Assembly: GCA_023255955.1 (NCBI GenBank)
Contig: JAGDWD010000008.1
Coordinates: forward strand, 254,845 to 318,844
Direction: 5' to 3'
Source of the DNA: Desulfurococcales archaeon
GTDB taxonomy: Archaea; Thermoproteota; Thermoprotei_A; Sulfolobales; NBVN01
DNA: 64,000 bases
Position 1 is the first letter of the stretch, and each line of letters opens with the position of its first letter. This document shows positions 23,037 to 29,260 of this stretch, one piece after another. The notes beneath the pieces are model-generated. The model worked only from the letters and a program-made list of their open reading frames with translations. It ran no database searches and was not told the origin of the DNA. The position numbers and the translations under genes are program-made.

Positions 23037-23555
23037 GTGGATCCTAGGAAGCTAGTTAGGGAGCTTGTATCTAGGTACGGTCCTGACCGAGGCAGGTTAA
23101 TACAGATACTCCAGGAAGTTCAGAAGGAGTATAGGTACCTCCCGAGGGAGAGCTTGGAGGAGGTATCTAAGGAGCTCGGAGTATCCCTCCCAGAAGTACT
23201 GAACGTAGCTACATTCTACCACCAGTTCAGGCTAGAACCTGTCGGCAAGTACATCGCCTACGTCTGCTTCGGAACTGCGTGCTACCTGAAGGGCTCGGCA
23301 GACGTCTATGAGGCTATGAGGAGGGCTGCTGGGTTAAATGATGGGCGTAGCACCACCGAGGACAGGACCCTAACAATCGAGAAGGCAAGGTGCTTCGGGT
23401 GCTGCAGCCTAGCTCCAGTAGTTATGGTGGTATCCTCAGACGGTACTGAGAGGTACGTACACGGTAGACTCACACCGTCAGAGGCTAGGAGGCTGGTCTC
23501 CACGTACAGGTCGAGGGCTCTGCGGTCTGGTGGGGTTGGGGTTGCTTCAGGATAG
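23037..23555 (+). CDS. NuoE/HoxE/HydC-like [2Fe-2S] subunit of the hydrogenase complex
   Basis: This 172-residue protein is a thioredoxin-fold [2Fe-2S] electron carrier of the NuoE family. The cluster ligands C77, C82, C119 and C123 are in VCFGTACYLKG and RCFGCCSLAP, and the N-terminal helical part carries LPEVLNVATFYHQF (51-64), a family hallmark. In bidirectional and bifurcating hydrogenases this subunit docks on the NuoF-like flavoprotein. It is the first gene of a five-gene operon whose coding regions touch or overlap. GTG 23037 has GAGGGG just upstream. The role in this complex follows from gene order. Confidence 0.92.
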   Translation: MDPRKLVRELVSRYGPDRGRLIQILQEVQKEYRYLPRESLEEVSKELGVSLPEVLNVATFYHQFRLEPVGKYIAYVCFGTACYLKGSADVYEAMRRAAGLNDGRSTTEDRTLTIEKARCFGCCSLAPVVMVVSSDGTERYVHGRLTPSEARRLVSTYRSRALRSGGVGVASG

Positions 23556-25359
23556 TTTGAGGAGGTTTATCTACGGTAGTAAAGGCTTCAGGATAAGGAT
23601 CCCTATAGCTAGCTGCTCCCTAGCTGCTGGTGCGGGGGAGGTATACCAGGCCGCACTCAAGGCTGTCGATAGGTTGGGCATCGATGCGGAGGTCTACAGG
23701 GTCGGCTGTACAGGGCTCTGCTTCATGGATCCCTGGGTGGAGATAGCGAAGGAGGGCCTACCACCAGCTATCTACGCTAACGTAAAACCCGATCAGGTAG
23801 CCACGATAATAGAGAGATATGTGAGTGGGGATCTCTCCGGAGCTGTCGCGGTGAGGTTTAAGCAAGGTGGTGAGAGGATCCCGTCCCTAGATGAGCTGGA
23901 CTTCTGGAGACTTCAAGTAAGGTTCGTATCCAGGAACTGCGGGCTGGTTGACCCGGAATCTATAGAGGACTACATAGCATCCGGAGGGTATCAAGGCCTT
24001 AGAAAAGCCCTTAGCATGAGGAGGGATGAGGTTATAGAGACCATAAAGAGGTCCGGTCTTAGAGGGAGGGGAGGAGCCGGGTTCCCGACATGGTTTAAGT
24101 GGAGGGTGGCATACGAGCAGGAGAGTGATGTGAAGTACGTGATATGTAACGGGGATGAGGGGGATCCAGGAGCGTTCATGAATAGGTTGCTAGCTGAGTC
24201 AGATCCTCACAGGGTTCTGGAGGGGCTGATAATAGCTGGCTACGCTATAGGTGCTACTAAGGGCTTCATATTCGTGAGAGCTGAGAAGCCCCTCATGGCC
24301 GACAGGTTGGAGAAGGCCGTGGAAGACGCTAGGAAGGCCGGGTTCCTGGGGAAGGGGATACTGGGCACTAACTTCGACTTCGATGTGGAGGTGTACAGGA
24401 GTGCTGGAGCCTTCGTCTGCGGTGAGGAGACGGCCCTGATAGCTGCTATCGAGGGCCGCTCTAGGCCTAGGCAGAGGCCTCCCTACCCAGCTACTAGCGG
24501 TCTGTGGGGGAAGCCAACAGTAATAAACAACGTGGAGACGTTGGCCCACGTAGCTACGATATTCCAGGTAGGCGTAGAGGAGTTCACCAAGCTCGGGACG
24601 GAGAAGTCGAAGGGGACTAAGATGTTTTGTGTTACGGGCTCCGTGAATAGGACCGGGGTCTACGAGGTACCTATAGGCACTAAGATCAAGACCTTGGTAT
24701 TCGATATTGCTGGTGGCCCGCCCGAGGGGAGGAAGGTGAAAGCCGTGCAGGTGGGAGGCCCTAGTGGTGGGTGTATACCGATAGAGCTCGCAGACCTGGA
24801 GCTGGACTACGAAAGCCTTCAGAGCTACGGAGCTATAATGGGTTCCGGGGGGCTGGTCGTCATAGACGACGGTAACTGCATGGTCGACGTAGCTAAGTTC
24901 TTTACCGGGTTTACTCTAGCTGAGTCATGCGGTAAGTGCCTGCCCTGCAGGGTCGGGATGAAGGTTCTCAGCGAAATACTTGAGAAGATAACTAGCGGGC
25001 AAGGTACTCTAGAGGACCTAGACCTAGCCCAAGAACTAGGTGAGAGCATAGCTAAGACAGGTCTCTGCGCTTTAGGTGGTACGGCACCGAATCCGGTGCT
25101 CTCAACTCTGAGATACTACAAGCACGAGTACATAGAGCACGTACTCAACAAGAGATGTCCAGCTAAGGTATGCCCCAAGCTCGTTAACTACTACATAGAT
25201 CCGAACCTATGTAGAGGATGTACTCAGTGCGCGAAGGTCTGCCCAGTCGGAGCGATATCCGGGTCTCCTGGGAAGGTCCACACAGTAAACACTGAGGTCT
25301 GCGTAAAGTGTGGTCAGTGTTTCTCTATCTGCCCGTTCGGGGCAGTGAAGAAGGTGTGA
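23530..25359 (+). CDS. NuoF/HydB-like FMN- and NAD(H)-binding subunit with extra clusters
   Basis: This 609-residue subunit has the layout of bifurcating-hydrogenase HydB. An N-terminal thioredoxin-like [2Fe-2S] domain (1-95) keeps three of four usual cysteines (C29, C60, C64). The NAD(H) loop is GRGGAGFPTW (179-188) and the FMN site is CNGDEGDPGAF (206-216). The NuoF [4Fe-4S] ligands are C467, C470, C473 and C513. A C-terminal two-cluster ferredoxin uses C561/564/567/571 and C591/594/597/601. The added ferredoxin separates it from plain NuoF. It overlaps nuoE by 26 bases if GTG 23530 is used. It should exchange electrons with NAD(H), and bifurcation with ferredoxin is plausible. Confidence 0.93.
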   Translation: MGLGLLQDSLRRFIYGSKGFRIRIPIASCSLAAGAGEVYQAALKAVDRLGIDAEVYRVGCTGLCFMDPWVEIAKEGLPPAIYANVKPDQVATIIERYVSGDLSGAVAVRFKQGGERIPSLDELDFWRLQVRFVSRNCGLVDPESIEDYIASGGYQGLRKALSMRRDEVIETIKRSGLRGRGGAGFPTWFKWRVAYEQESDVKYVICNGDEGDPGAFMNRLLAESDPHRVLEGLIIAGYAIGATKGFIFVRAEKPLMADRLEKAVEDARKAGFLGKGILGTNFDFDVEVYRSAGAFVCGEETALIAAIEGRSRPRQRPPYPATSGLWGKPTVINNVETLAHVATIFQVGVEEFTKLGTEKSKGTKMFCVTGSVNRTGVYEVPIGTKIKTLVFDIAGGPPEGRKVKAVQVGGPSGGCIPIELADLELDYESLQSYGAIMGSGGLVVIDDGNCMVDVAKFFTGFTLAESCGKCLPCRVGMKVLSEILEKITSGQGTLEDLDLAQELGESIAKTGLCALGGTAPNPVLSTLRYYKHEYIEHVLNKRCPAKVCPKLVNYYIDPNLCRGCTQCAKVCPVGAISGSPGKVHTVNTEVCVKCGQCFSICPFGAVKKV

Positions 25360-25363
25360 GGCC

Positions 25364-26014
25364 ATGCGCGTAGTTAAGGTATACGTGAACGGAGTGGCTG
25401 TCGAGGTCCCTGAAGGTGCTACAGTCCTCAACGCTATTGAGAAGGCAGGCTATAGCGTCCCCCTACTCTGCTACCTAGACGGCCTATTCAATGAGGCTAC
25501 CTGCAGAGTCTGCGTTGTCTTGGTCAACGGCAGGGTCGTCCCTGCCTGCAGGTTCCCCGCCTCGGACGGTATTAAAGTAACTACAGAGAGCGATGAGTTG
25601 CTCAGGTATAGGAGGACTAACTTAGAGCTACTCCTATCGACACACCGAATTGAGTGCTGGAGCTGCTCTAGGAAGTCCGGTTGCGAGCTGTTAGCACTCT
25701 CTAAGCAGTTAGGGGTTGAGGGCATCCCGGTATGTGCTGAATGCCCACTCGCAGGTGATAGTTGCTTGGTAGCTAGGGGGGAGCCTTGCTTAGGACCTCT
25801 AACAGTAGCTGGATGCTCAGCTGAGTGTACTAGGAACGGGGCCCCGTGTACTGGCTGTAGAGGATTCATAACTAGACCCGAGGTTTGGAAGAGTGCGGCA
25901 GAGTTCTACAGAGAGCACGGAGTTGACGGGAAGAAGGTTGAGGTAGCTATGAGGTTCTTCTGGGCTTCAGTTCCCGACCACCTTAAGAAGATAGCTCTGG
26001 GTGGTGCTCCGTGA
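25364..26014 (+). CDS. HoxU/NuoG-N-like Fe-S subunit carrying a hydrogenase small-subunit tail motif
   Basis: This 216-residue protein begins with a plant-type [2Fe-2S] domain (C36, C47, C50, C62) and the His-Cys3 [4Fe-4S] motif of NuoG (H94, C98, C101, C107). Residues 124-167 then read CAECPLAGDSC and CLGPLTVAGCSAEC...PCTGCRG. This second part matches the distal-cluster end of group 3 [NiFe]-hydrogenase small subunits (MvhG and sulfhydrogenase type), which is missing from the small-subunit gene of this operon. The protein would bridge the flavin subunit and the [NiFe] unit. It overlaps the large-subunit gene by 4 bases. The first two domains are certain; the third is a motif match. Confidence 0.88.
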   Translation: MRVVKVYVNGVAVEVPEGATVLNAIEKAGYSVPLLCYLDGLFNEATCRVCVVLVNGRVVPACRFPASDGIKVTTESDELLRYRRTNLELLLSTHRIECWSCSRKSGCELLALSKQLGVEGIPVCAECPLAGDSCLVARGEPCLGPLTVAGCSAECTRNGAPCTGCRGFITRPEVWKSAAEFYREHGVDGKKVEVAMRFFWASVPDHLKKIALGGAP

Positions 26015-27282
26015 ACGGCAGGTTTAGTTGGGAGGTAGATAGGGTAGCAGGAGAGTCTAAGGTTGAGGTATTCCTAGATAACGGTACGGTTAGAGTTAGG
26101 TACGGGTCTCTATTAAGTATTAGAGGATTTGAGAAGCTGGTTCTAGGCCGGCACGTAGGCGACGTACCCGTAATAGCTGCTAGAATATGCGGTGTCTGCA
26201 GCCACCCCCACTTCTGGGCAGCTACCGTAGCTGCTGAGCAGGCAGCTGGTATTGAGGTCAGTGACGACGTGGCTAGGATTAGGGATGTCTGCAACAAGCT
26301 CGGGCTACTTCAGAACCACGTAGTCCACCTCGGATTCCTCGCGTTACCGGACTATATGAGTAGGGAAGAACTAGAGAGACTGGGTAGGGACGTCCTAGTA
26401 GTGAACAACAACATCGTCAACGCTATGAAGCTCCTGTGCGGTAGGCTTACATCACCTAATAGCTACCGTCTGGGAAGGTTCCTCTCGCGGATAGATAAAA
26501 GAACCATTACCACAGCTCTCGAATACCTTAAGGATGCTAGAAAGACCTTTGAGGAGCTCGTCGAGAGAGTGCTTAAAGTAGAGATTCCGGATCTGAAGGA
26601 TCCTTCCCCGGTCGGGCTATCCCTCTCAGGATCTCCAGCAACCACCGTTCCTAAGGCAGGGCCGTACCTCCTCGAGGTACCTGGGGGGAGGACGGAAATA
26701 CACATCAGTAACTATAAGGACGTCCTCATGGAGGTGCCTGCCGACTACTCAACAAGTAAGAAGTGTGTTTATGAAGGTAGACCATTCCATGTAGGTTCTA
26801 GGGCCAGACTCCTCAACGCGTTAAGAGATAGTAACCTAGGTAGTGAGCTCAGAAACGTCATTAGTGGCTATGAGAATGTGCTGACATGGAATCCGTTCGC
26901 TAATATTTACGCGAAGGCTTTGGAATCTAAAGTAGTCTTCGACCTCGTAATGAGGGAGCTAAGCGAGTTAAATAGGGAGCTCAAGCTAGAACCCGCGTAC
27001 AGCGGTAGGAACTTCAATGCTGGGATAGGTGTTGTAGAGGCTCCTAGGGGACTACTCGTACACTACTACGAGGTAGATAGAGAGCTCAGAGTAGTTAAAG
27101 CGGATATAGTGACCCCCACAGTAATGAACACGCCCCACATCGAGGCATCGGCTACAGCACTGGTCGGGGATCTACTGTCGAGTAAGGCTGATGAAGGCTT
27201 GGTGAAGAAGTTGGTTGAGGCGTTAGTGAGGGCGTATGATCCGTGTATTCCATGTGCTGTACATGTGGTAAGGGCTAGGTGA
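26011..27282 (+). CDS. [NiFe]-hydrogenase large (catalytic) subunit, group 3-like
   Basis: This 423-residue subunit holds the Ni-Fe active site. The L1 motif RICGVCSHPH supplies C60 and C63 with H67, and the L2 motif DPCIPCAVH near the C-terminus supplies C412 and C415, so all four metal-binding cysteines are present. The final HVVRAR after the L2 histidine is the short tail normally removed or lacking in mature proteins. The length and the DPCxxCxxH ending fit soluble group 3 (NAD- or F420-linked) enzymes. It overlaps both neighbours by 4 bases, which implies tight co-translation. No hyp maturation genes are in the window. Catalytic competence is inferred from the residues. Confidence 0.94.
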   Translation: MNGRFSWEVDRVAGESKVEVFLDNGTVRVRYGSLLSIRGFEKLVLGRHVGDVPVIAARICGVCSHPHFWAATVAAEQAAGIEVSDDVARIRDVCNKLGLLQNHVVHLGFLALPDYMSREELERLGRDVLVVNNNIVNAMKLLCGRLTSPNSYRLGRFLSRIDKRTITTALEYLKDARKTFEELVERVLKVEIPDLKDPSPVGLSLSGSPATTVPKAGPYLLEVPGGRTEIHISNYKDVLMEVPADYSTSKKCVYEGRPFHVGSRARLLNALRDSNLGSELRNVISGYENVLTWNPFANIYAKALESKVVFDLVMRELSELNRELKLEPAYSGRNFNAGIGVVEAPRGLLVHYYEVDRELRVVKADIVTPTVMNTPHIEASATALVGDLLSSKADEGLVKKLVEALVRAYDPCIPCAVHVVRAR

Positions 27283-28598
27283 TCTCAATGGGCTTCAAAC
27301 TATCCGTAATTGCTCTCTCGGGTTGTGACGGCTGTCAGTACAACCTCGTTACTAGGGAGTTCTTCGAGTTCTTGAAGCAGAAGGGGATTGAGATATCCTA
27401 CTGGCCACTCATTGGAGCTGGAGACAGCTTCGAGGCTTCGGATATAACTTTAGTGGAAGGATCCGTAATTAGCGATAGGGATGTTGAGGTCTTAAGGAAG
27501 GCTAGGGAAGGCTCGAAGTACGTAGTTGCTATGGGGGCGTGCGCCCTGCTAGGAGGGATTCAAGGAGGTCTAGGACAGTCGAAGCCTATAAGTAGTTACA
27601 TCAATGTTGATTACTATGTAAGAGGCTGCCCAGTAACTCCTTCAGAGGTCATGTACCTACTAGATAACATAGTGTCGAAACGCGGATGGAGACTCGGGGA
27701 GAGGAGATTCGGGTATATTGAGAGGGGTACGCACACCATTGAAGACGGTTCTCTAGTGTTAGACCAAGGTAAGTGCGTCGTGTGCGGGAGATGTATTGAT
27801 GTGTGTGCTCGGATAGGAGCTAAGGTACTTAACTATACCCACAGAGGGATAGATACCCTCATATCGACCCCCTACCGCGACCCGTTCGGGAAATCAGGCT
27901 GTGTTTACTGCGGTCTCTGCGCAGCATACTGCCCTGTAGGTGCTATATGGTATAAATCCGACGTTGAGAGGATACTTTCCGAGGTCTCTAAGGGGAACAT
28001 ATCTGAGGTACTAGTAGAGCCTGAGGCCTTAGCGGCTCTAGCAGAATCTGAAAACCTGACACCACACCAGGTCGTTGAGGGGTTGAGGATCCTAGGTTTT
28101 AGAAGAATCATCGTGTACGACCCTCTAAGCCAGGTTGACAGTAACTTAAAGAACACTATCATACTGAGATCACCAGCAGAGAGGGAACTACTTAGGAGAA
28201 TCCCCATCAACCCAAATGTGAATATAGTAGACATAGACCTGAGAATCACGCCAGGTGTTGTCTACCTAACGCAGTGCTTCTCCTGGAAGTCTAAGCTCTC
28301 GAGAGCCATAACATCTAGAGAACTCCAGCTAGCTCTTAGAAGACTGAACTATGCTACTTTAAGAGGGGATCTACCGGACGAGGTGTTCGTCTCGAAGAAT
28401 AGTGTACGTAGAGTAAACTCCTTAGAGGAGCTAAGAAGGATCTCCGAGGAGAGAGTGAGAGAAACCATAGTATTTGAGTTATGTCCTGGAGGCTGTCTTC
28501 TAGGGGGAGGACAACCAATCAGTAACGGGAAGAAGCTTAGTAAGGTCCTAGAAGATAGGTGGAGCAGGCTCCGGGAGTTTTTCACTAATCTAGCTTGA
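27279..28598 (+). CDS. hybrid subunit: [NiFe]-hydrogenase small N-domain + ferredoxin + [FeFe]-hydrogenase-like domain
   Basis: This 439-residue protein has three parts. Residues 1-130 are the proximal-cluster domain of a [NiFe]-hydrogenase small subunit (C16, C19, C88, C117; SGCDGCQ, MGAC, RGCP, plus the LVEG strand). Residues 160-225 hold two [4Fe-4S] motifs (C166/169/172/176 and C208/211/214/218). Residues 240-439 resemble a shortened [FeFe]-hydrogenase H-domain: VLVEPEALAALAE and LRILGFRRIIVYD, an L2-like TQCFSWKSKL (C333) with ITSRELQLAL, and an L3 motif ELCPGGCLLGGGQP (C402, C406). The L1 cysteine is absent, so a normal H-cluster is unlikely. It is the last gene of the operon. The start is GTG 27279 or ATG 27288. 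Confidence 0.9.
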   Translation: MISMGFKLSVIALSGCDGCQYNLVTREFFEFLKQKGIEISYWPLIGAGDSFEASDITLVEGSVISDRDVEVLRKAREGSKYVVAMGACALLGGIQGGLGQSKPISSYINVDYYVRGCPVTPSEVMYLLDNIVSKRGWRLGERRFGYIERGTHTIEDGSLVLDQGKCVVCGRCIDVCARIGAKVLNYTHRGIDTLISTPYRDPFGKSGCVYCGLCAAYCPVGAIWYKSDVERILSEVSKGNISEVLVEPEALAALAESENLTPHQVVEGLRILGFRRIIVYDPLSQVDSNLKNTIILRSPAERELLRRIPINPNVNIVDIDLRITPGVVYLTQCFSWKSKLSRAITSRELQLALRRLNYATLRGDLPDEVFVSKNSVRRVNSLEELRRISEERVRETIVFELCPGGCLLGGGQPISNGKKLSKVLEDRWSRLREFFTNLA

Positions 28599-28630: not shown

Positions 28631-29260
28631 CTAGAGCCTGGACCTGAAGTATCCTGAAACGTAGATAGCGGCTGCCGGGTTATGCCCGGTTACTCGGTCC
28701 TTAGCTATTAGGTAAGTTACCGGGGCCTTCGAGTACTCTATGAAGAGGGTGTCGTGCCCCACACAAAGACCTACAACCACGTTGAGCTCCGTACCTACGT
28801 GGTTCAGTAGCTCTGCCTGGACTATGGGGTTGCACATAGGCTCGAAGTTCCCAGGCCGTAACTTCTGATCCTCACTCAGACCTACCTGAGTTTTATCTAC
28901 AGCACCACACTTACAGCAGACAGAGTAGACCTCGAAATTCTTGCTCTCCAGGTACTTAGCTACCTGCTCGGCCTCAAAGCTTAGACCAACACAGAACGCT
29001 ATCCCTATCTTCTTTATGTTCAACTTCCTAGCGAACTCCACCACCTCCCTGAGCCTAGGCCACATGCAGTAACCCTCAACCTCAACTAGTGAGGCTGCTT
29101 TATGGATCTCCTTAACGAACCCCGCGTACTTCTCGAAAGCACTCCGCACTACCTCCGGATATGTAACCATCGGGCAGTTATTAGGTAGGGGAGAGCCCTC
29201 CCCCTTAGAACAGGACTTCACCCTGCAGTAAGCACAACTAGGAGACCTTAACCCCACCAA
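28631..29260 (-). CDS. DUF1847-family cysteine-rich metal-binding protein
   Basis: This 209-residue protein matches the DUF1847 family of anaerobes, annotated as metal-binding. An N-terminal cluster CAYCRVKSC and NNCPM is followed by a Rossmann-like unit (IGIAFCVGLSFEAEQVAKYL), then SVCCKCGAVDK, then a second alpha/beta half with VVVGLCVGHDTLFI and TYLIAKDRVTGHNP. The many cysteines suggest Fe-S or zinc binding. It is read towards the hydrogenase operon (convergent, 32 bases apart), so it is not cotranscribed with it. Function unknown. Confidence 0.85.
   Translation of the reverse strand: MVGLRSPSCAYCRVKSCSKGEGSPLPNNCPMVTYPEVVRSAFEKYAGFVKEIHKAASLVEVEGYCMWPRLREVVEFARKLNIKKIGIAFCVGLSFEAEQVAKYLESKNFEVYSVCCKCGAVDKTQVGLSEDQKLRPGNFEPMCNPIVQAELLNHVGTELNVVVGLCVGHDTLFIEYSKAPVTYLIAKDRVTGHNPAAAIYVSGYFRSRL

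Follow-up and report, generated by a model that had tools for sequence, protein, structure and literature searches.

An archaeal [NiFe] hydrogenase operon with apparently exchanged HydA and HydS halves and a degenerate [FeFe] H-domain

The window, a 64,000-nucleotide stretch of a Desulfurococcales archaeon contig, belongs to a source genome of 1.64 Mb that is 97% complete. The open reading frame listing places five genes in the same direction between 23037 and 28598, all on the + strand: hydC, hydB, a short HoxU-like gene, hydL and a fusion gene. The first (23037..23555, +) encodes a HydC/NuoE-like subunit with a thioredoxin-fold [2Fe-2S] domain (cluster C1; Pfam PF01257, 8.5e-41) in which C77-x4-C and CFGCC are present, and the second (23530..25359, +) a HydB/NuoF-like FMN subunit of the electron-bifurcating type. 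The HoxU-like gene (25364-26014, +) is composite: residues 1-122 (25364..25729, +) represent the N-terminal part of HydA with the [2Fe-2S] A1 and His/Cys [4Fe-4S] A2 sites, here a separate gene, and joined to this HydA N-terminus are residues 123-216 (25730..26014, +), a Cys-rich C-terminal cluster tail of a [NiFe] small subunit that ends in CTGCRG. Next come hydL (26011..27282, +; PF00374, 3.9e-31), the large, catalytic subunit of a [NiFe] hydrogenase, and the fusion gene (27279..28598, +), the last of the five, which encodes 439 aa from a GTG start and overlaps the hydL stop by 4 nt. A DUF1847 gene (6.8e-62) lies at 28631-29260, convergent to the hydrogenase operon.

The fusion gene combines a small-subunit N-domain, a HydA ferredoxin and a degenerate H-domain, as the first-pass annotation had read it, and profile, structure and family evidence back that reading. 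The small-subunit proximal-cluster domain occupies residues 1-140 (27279..27698, +), with residues 16-129 matching Oxidored_q6 (PF01058) in Pfam at 2.4e-21, as the first pass had expected of the N-terminal part, and the domain matches the sulfhydrogenase delta chain 9nez_A at 1.5e-16. Residues 143-285 align to residues 123-266 of 8a6t_A, a HydA of the bifurcating [FeFe] hydrogenases (2.7e-27), and include the ferredoxin domain with two [4Fe-4S] clusters, A3 and A4, at residues 156-226 (27744..27956, +). The translation has the cysteines named in the first pass (C16, C19, C88 and C117, those of the two ferredoxin motifs, C333, C402 and C406) at the stated positions, and none of them varies in family alignments of 15 and 17 members; the first-pass reading of a Cys-free stretch between C218 and C333 likewise holds. 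A whole-chain AlphaFold model has low confidence across the ferredoxin region, and its top fold match is Thermotoga maritima HydA (2.0e-14). We ruled out an assembly chimera, since 35 distinct sequences, spread over several archaeal orders, share this architecture.

The C-terminal domain (residues 231-439; 27969..28598, +) is homologous to the H-domains of [FeFe] hydrogenases. As a single sequence, residues 230-439 gave no match to Pfam Fe_hyd_lg_C (PF02906), and a search of the whole source genome for Fe_hyd_lg_C found nothing, a result that on its own would refute the suggested [FeFe] origin and that profile and fold searches overturn. A 15-member profile of the H-domain stretch alone, searched against PDB sequences, returned 43 matches, all of them [FeFe] hydrogenases, the best at 1.5e-12 and ahead of any non-hydrogenase; the first of the latter was a collagen at E 0.32. 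The match comprises three colinear segments, namely the post-ferredoxin segment, the VLTTREL stretch that follows L2, and L3 itself. Modelled by itself with AlphaFold, the domain reached pLDDT 91.8 and pTM 0.88, and its 50 best PDB fold matches contained [FeFe] hydrogenases only, with TM values, normalised to the query, between 0.58 and 0.70. A chance CPGGC motif is ruled out, as L2, L3 and the post-ferredoxin segment follow one another as in HydA and no protein other than a hydrogenase scores.

We then aligned the 35 distinct fusion sequences to canonical HydA and counted the H-cluster ligands. The window H-domain has three of the four cubane cysteines. Cys333, the L2 ligand (28275..28277, +), corresponds to CpI C355, and Cys402 and Cys406, in L3 CPGGCLLGGGQP (28482..28517, +), correspond to C499 and C503; the L2 Cys and both L3 Cys are kept in 35/35 sequences each. 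At the fourth position, which is C300 in CpI numbering, stands Ser298 (28170..28172, +), with Ser in 34 and Cys in one of the 35 fused relatives. The first pass had called the L1 ligand lost: the ligand Cys is indeed gone, but the loop is present, and the alignment shows a Cys-to-Ser substitution, so that we rejected a deletion of L1. The segments of the diiron pocket, TSCCP, SPQQ and TGGVMEAALR, are absent or changed in the window protein; TGGVMEAALR is gapped in 35/35 fused sequences, and SPQQ is missing in the subset of them inspected for it. The proton-relay Cys (CpI C299 equivalent) is replaced in 33/35, and the position of CpI K358 holds W or R in 32 sequences and K in 3. Given the loss of TGGVMEAALR, the replaced L1 Cys and the three cysteines kept in all 35, the alignment indicates that the diiron site is gone from the H-domain while three cubane ligands have been kept without exception. 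By sequence, then, the domain appears non-catalytic but not randomly decayed.

Comparison with the flanking gene changes how the fusion is to be understood. Residues 3-126 of the upstream gene align to residues 3-128 of HydA1 (7q4v_A, 7.1e-24) and residues 121-200 to residues 161-242 of the sulfhydrogenase-1 delta chain (4e-16), and the delta match of the fusion stops at delta residue 149. An unswapped form, a whole HydA beside a whole HydS, is found in three genomes (L126, L127 and L128). In BLAST against L127, the window HydA-N gene matches HydA 1-121 and HydS 163-229, and the fusion matches HydS 8-159 and HydA 138-379; identity is 40% for upstream residues 3-121 with the L127 HydA and 41% for residues 122-189 with its HydS tail. 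The HydS tail motif sits on HydA-N in 20/20 operons. These complementary matches to HydA and delta halves, with complementary breakpoints, indicate at the sequence level that the two genes hold exchanged HydA and HydS halves. The simple fusion gene of the first pass thus stands as far as the joined domains go, and together with its upstream neighbour it forms a pair of genes with reciprocally exchanged halves.

The gene order differs between the two forms, being A-S-L in the unswapped and A'-L-S' in the swapped operons. Excision of the hydA-C/hydS-N segment from the A-S-L order would join HydA-N to HydS-C; the excised circle would carry a HydS-N/HydA-C junction, and the observed order would result if the circle went back in downstream of hydL. 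Both hybrid genes could have been created at once by such an excision and reinsertion, which we infer as their origin. It is possible, if somewhat doubtful, that a single excision-reinsertion event of this kind was coupled to a rebuilding of the H-cluster site as a functional cubane, held by three Cys plus either Ser or an open fourth position, that would serve as a relay, in ferredoxin docking or as a redox sensor. Separate domain accretions, rather than one reciprocal exchange, could also have made the two hybrid genes, and the difference in gene order lends this some weight, since at least one further rearrangement is needed unless the excised circle was reinserted. We hold it to be rather unlikely, as the breakpoints complement each other and leave every domain present exactly once, each of the 20 operons checked contains both hybrids, and no operon examined has one hybrid alone.

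For the H-domain, a cluster-free structural scaffold has to be weighed, with Ser298-x-x-Glu301 as a helix-capping box and the cysteines serving folding or another metal. The S-x-x-E stretch lies directly before helix 75-81 of the domain model, so that Ser298/Glu301 fits a capping box too, and Glu is found three residues past the L1 Ser in 34/35 fused sequences. Helix caps usually permit Thr, Asp and Asn, however, none of which appears in the fused relatives, and C333, C402 and C406 are exactly the three H-cluster cubane positions and remain invariant in 35/35 even at 21-35% domain identity. We consider a cluster-free domain unlikely.

The flavin subunit bears on whether the enzyme would bifurcate. 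The window HydB carries an N-terminal thioredoxin-like [2Fe-2S] motif, an FMN domain, B1, CPAKVC and two C-terminal [4Fe-4S] motifs, and aligns nearly end to end with the bifurcating HydB of Acetomicrobium mobile (7t2r_B, 1.1e-198); the motifs for clusters B1-B5 of HydB and C1 of HydC are thus all present. A plain NAD(P)-reducing, non-bifurcating [NiFe] hydrogenase could be built on the same core, since HoxFUYH enzymes have the same core subunits (PMC8880783), and the HydB of L125 is without the B3/B4 clusters. The window HydB nonetheless has the N-terminal [2Fe-2S], CPAKVC and both C-terminal [4Fe-4S] motifs and matches bifurcating HydB over almost its whole length, and clusters B2-B5 are described as unique to bifurcating enzymes (PMC8880783), which makes a non-bifurcating enzyme improbable here. 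In the swapped operon of G114 that retains the L1 cysteine, HydB (L125:3476-5152) ends after CPAGVC, and the two C-terminal [4Fe-4S] motifs are lacking; this hybrid complex may therefore not bifurcate, and bifurcation need not hold for all hybrids. Upstream of that operon lies a putative hydrogenase maturation protease-like gene (L125:1151-1657), its sequence judged by eye.

In HydL, the ligand motifs RICGVC and DPCIPC are intact, and the short tail VVRAR follows DPCIPCAVH. The closest solved structures are a 'cytosolic NiFe-hydrogenase alpha' (5yxy_A, 9.3e-40) and the sulfhydrogenase I alpha chain (9nez_D, 3.7e-39). HypD is present in the same genome (6.1e-101), and together with the nickel ligands and the proximal-cluster Cys this points to a [NiFe] hydrogenase of a group 3-like type. 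Past DPCxxCxxH, HydL tails run from 0 to 11 aa across the window (26011-27282) and five further loci (L030, L032, L034, L036 and L037); in Thermofilales-type and genus g5 operons the His is the very last residue of HydL, which would thus be able to mature without C-terminal cleavage. HydG is absent from the source genome and none scored over the cut-off in 60 relatives, and for HydF the source genome gave GTPase background only, none over the cut-off. The absence of HydG and the presence of HypD agree weakly with NiFe-only chemistry, since HydG was also not found in G276, an archaeal genome whose HydA (L129:5916-7727, L124:37-1848) has canonical TSCCPAW, SPQQ and TGGVMEAALR; unusual maturation, an incomplete bin or contamination could account for that case. 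A full or partial H-cluster acting as a second H2 site, to which the retained L2 and L3 Cys, the L2 motif TPCLAKK of Wolframiiraptor relatives, the CC in L1 of L120 and the title of Greening et al. 2024, which terms hybrid hydrogenases active, might point, and which may apply to some of the archaeal hybrids published in 2024, is highly improbable for the window protein, where the L1 Cys, the proton-relay Cys, SPQQ and TGGVMEAALR are all wanting, HydG is missing and PF02906 does not match.

Taken with the full HydB and HydC motifs and the intact HydL ligands, the A. mobile precedent leads us to propose, with fair confidence, that the operon encodes a five-subunit soluble bifurcating hydrogenase of the NiFe-HydABCSL type, with the C-terminal halves of HydA and HydS exchanged and with the H-domain serving as a relay or scaffold rather than as a second catalyst. 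In such a complex, H2 would be handled at the [NiFe] site of HydL, and electrons would pass from the proximal cluster to the A3/A4 ferredoxin clusters, which here sit on the same chain, and on to the FMN centre of HydB, which would split or merge them between NAD(P) and ferredoxin. In the cell the enzyme most likely runs towards H2 evolution. A single [4Fe-4S] cluster most likely remains in the H-domain, bound by C333, C402 and C406 with Ser298 or an open position as its fourth site, and this cluster would act as an end-of-wire relay or a structural block in a position comparable to the A5 [4Fe-4S] cluster of A. mobile HydA.

Next, we considered distribution and the order of events. A genome scan placed the fusion in metagenome-assembled genomes (MAGs) labelled Sulfolobales, Desulfurococcales, Ignisphaera, Thermofilales and Candidatus Wolframiiraptor and in one labelled Archaeoglobales, the named fusion-bearing genomes being uncultured MAGs; one Bathyarchaeota-labelled MAG has a match over the same span that is broken into short frames. 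The H-domain profile matched in 24/398 sampled genomes of the phylum, with four of the 24 matches lying around L3 only, in whole HydA or HydA-like proteins. One relative (L020 and L049, G028 C1) has no more than a remnant of the fusion gene, riddled with stops, which suggests a recent loss of the complex there. The unswapped archaeal gene sets of NiFe-HydABCSL type lie at L126:5153-11264, L127:5834-9470 and L128:7186-10865, and their whole HydA has an H-domain with one L1 Cys and a degenerate diiron segment.

In the HydB tree, the archaeal sequences form one clade (100/100) with bacterial HydB outside, and the nearest named relatives are MAGs recorded under Sulfolobales, Desulfurococcaceae and Ignisphaera. 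The first split within the clade is the unswapped L126, followed by L125, which is swapped with L1 still CC (the same gene as L120), and then by the Ser clade (98/93, then 100/99). This branching suggests that the swap preceded the Cys-to-Ser change. Because L126 and L125 are long branches, the order from unswapped, to swapped with Cys, to swapped with Ser is likely rather than proven.

The series from unswapped through swapped-Cys to swapped-Ser would illustrate how an [FeFe] catalytic domain persisted within a [NiFe] enzyme without its catalytic role, in effect a nickel-iron enzyme of a heat-loving archaeon absorbing the remains of an unrelated iron-only hydrogenase as a spare part. The window hybrid would also reflect a reciprocal exchange of subunit halves and not a simple add-on fusion. 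It predicts a complex assembled from two interlocked half-swapped chains and an H-domain that holds a lone cubane or nothing, with no diiron site, which bears on the question of whether hybrid hydrogenases possess two H2 sites. Hybrids of this kind have already been reported (Greening et al. 2024), and the present analysis adds the swap, the replacement by Ser and the three-step series; in the literature searched, a set outside which Greening et al. 2024 lies, we found no description of the HydA/HydS half swap or of hybrids in these orders.

Among known systems, the closest in composition is the A. mobile NiFe-HydABCSL (PDB 7t2r, 7t30), which likewise has HydC, HydB, a HydA-type wire and a [NiFe] HydSL module and performs a coupled H2/NAD/ferredoxin reaction with the same subunit set (PMC8880783). 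Its HydA carries the A5 cluster in place of the H-cluster (PMC8880783, PMC9304861). HydA and HydS are separate whole proteins there, with a HydS of 179 aa, whereas the window has their halves exchanged; only residues 121-211 of A. mobile HydA match the fusion-family profile, while the window H-domain is still recognisable. Bifurcating [FeFe] HydABC enzymes (T. maritima 7p5h, Thermoanaerobacter kivui 8a6t, Acetobacterium woodii 7q4v) have the ferredoxin plus H-domain, HydB and HydC in common with the window, but in them the H-cluster is the catalyst, in contrast to the 3/4 cubane Cys, the missing diiron segment and the split HydA seen here. The Pyrococcus furiosus sulfhydrogenase I (9nez, 9e15) resembles the window in its alpha chain, which is close to HydL (3.7e-39), and in its delta chain, which is close to both the small-subunit domain (1.5e-16) and the tail (4e-16); delta is one chain, whereas the window carries its two halves on two genes. 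Archaeal [FeFe]/[NiFe] hybrid hydrogenases have reportedly been described from ten orders by Greening et al. 2024 (Cell 187:3357). Those hybrids reportedly join [FeFe] to [NiFe] parts in archaeal proteins, and the window protein is likewise such a fusion. Profile, structure and family evidence support the first-pass suggestion of a member or a dead-FeFe variant of these archaeal hybrids, and the window hybrid has an [FeFe] part that has lost its diiron pocket along with the L1 and proton-relay cysteines.
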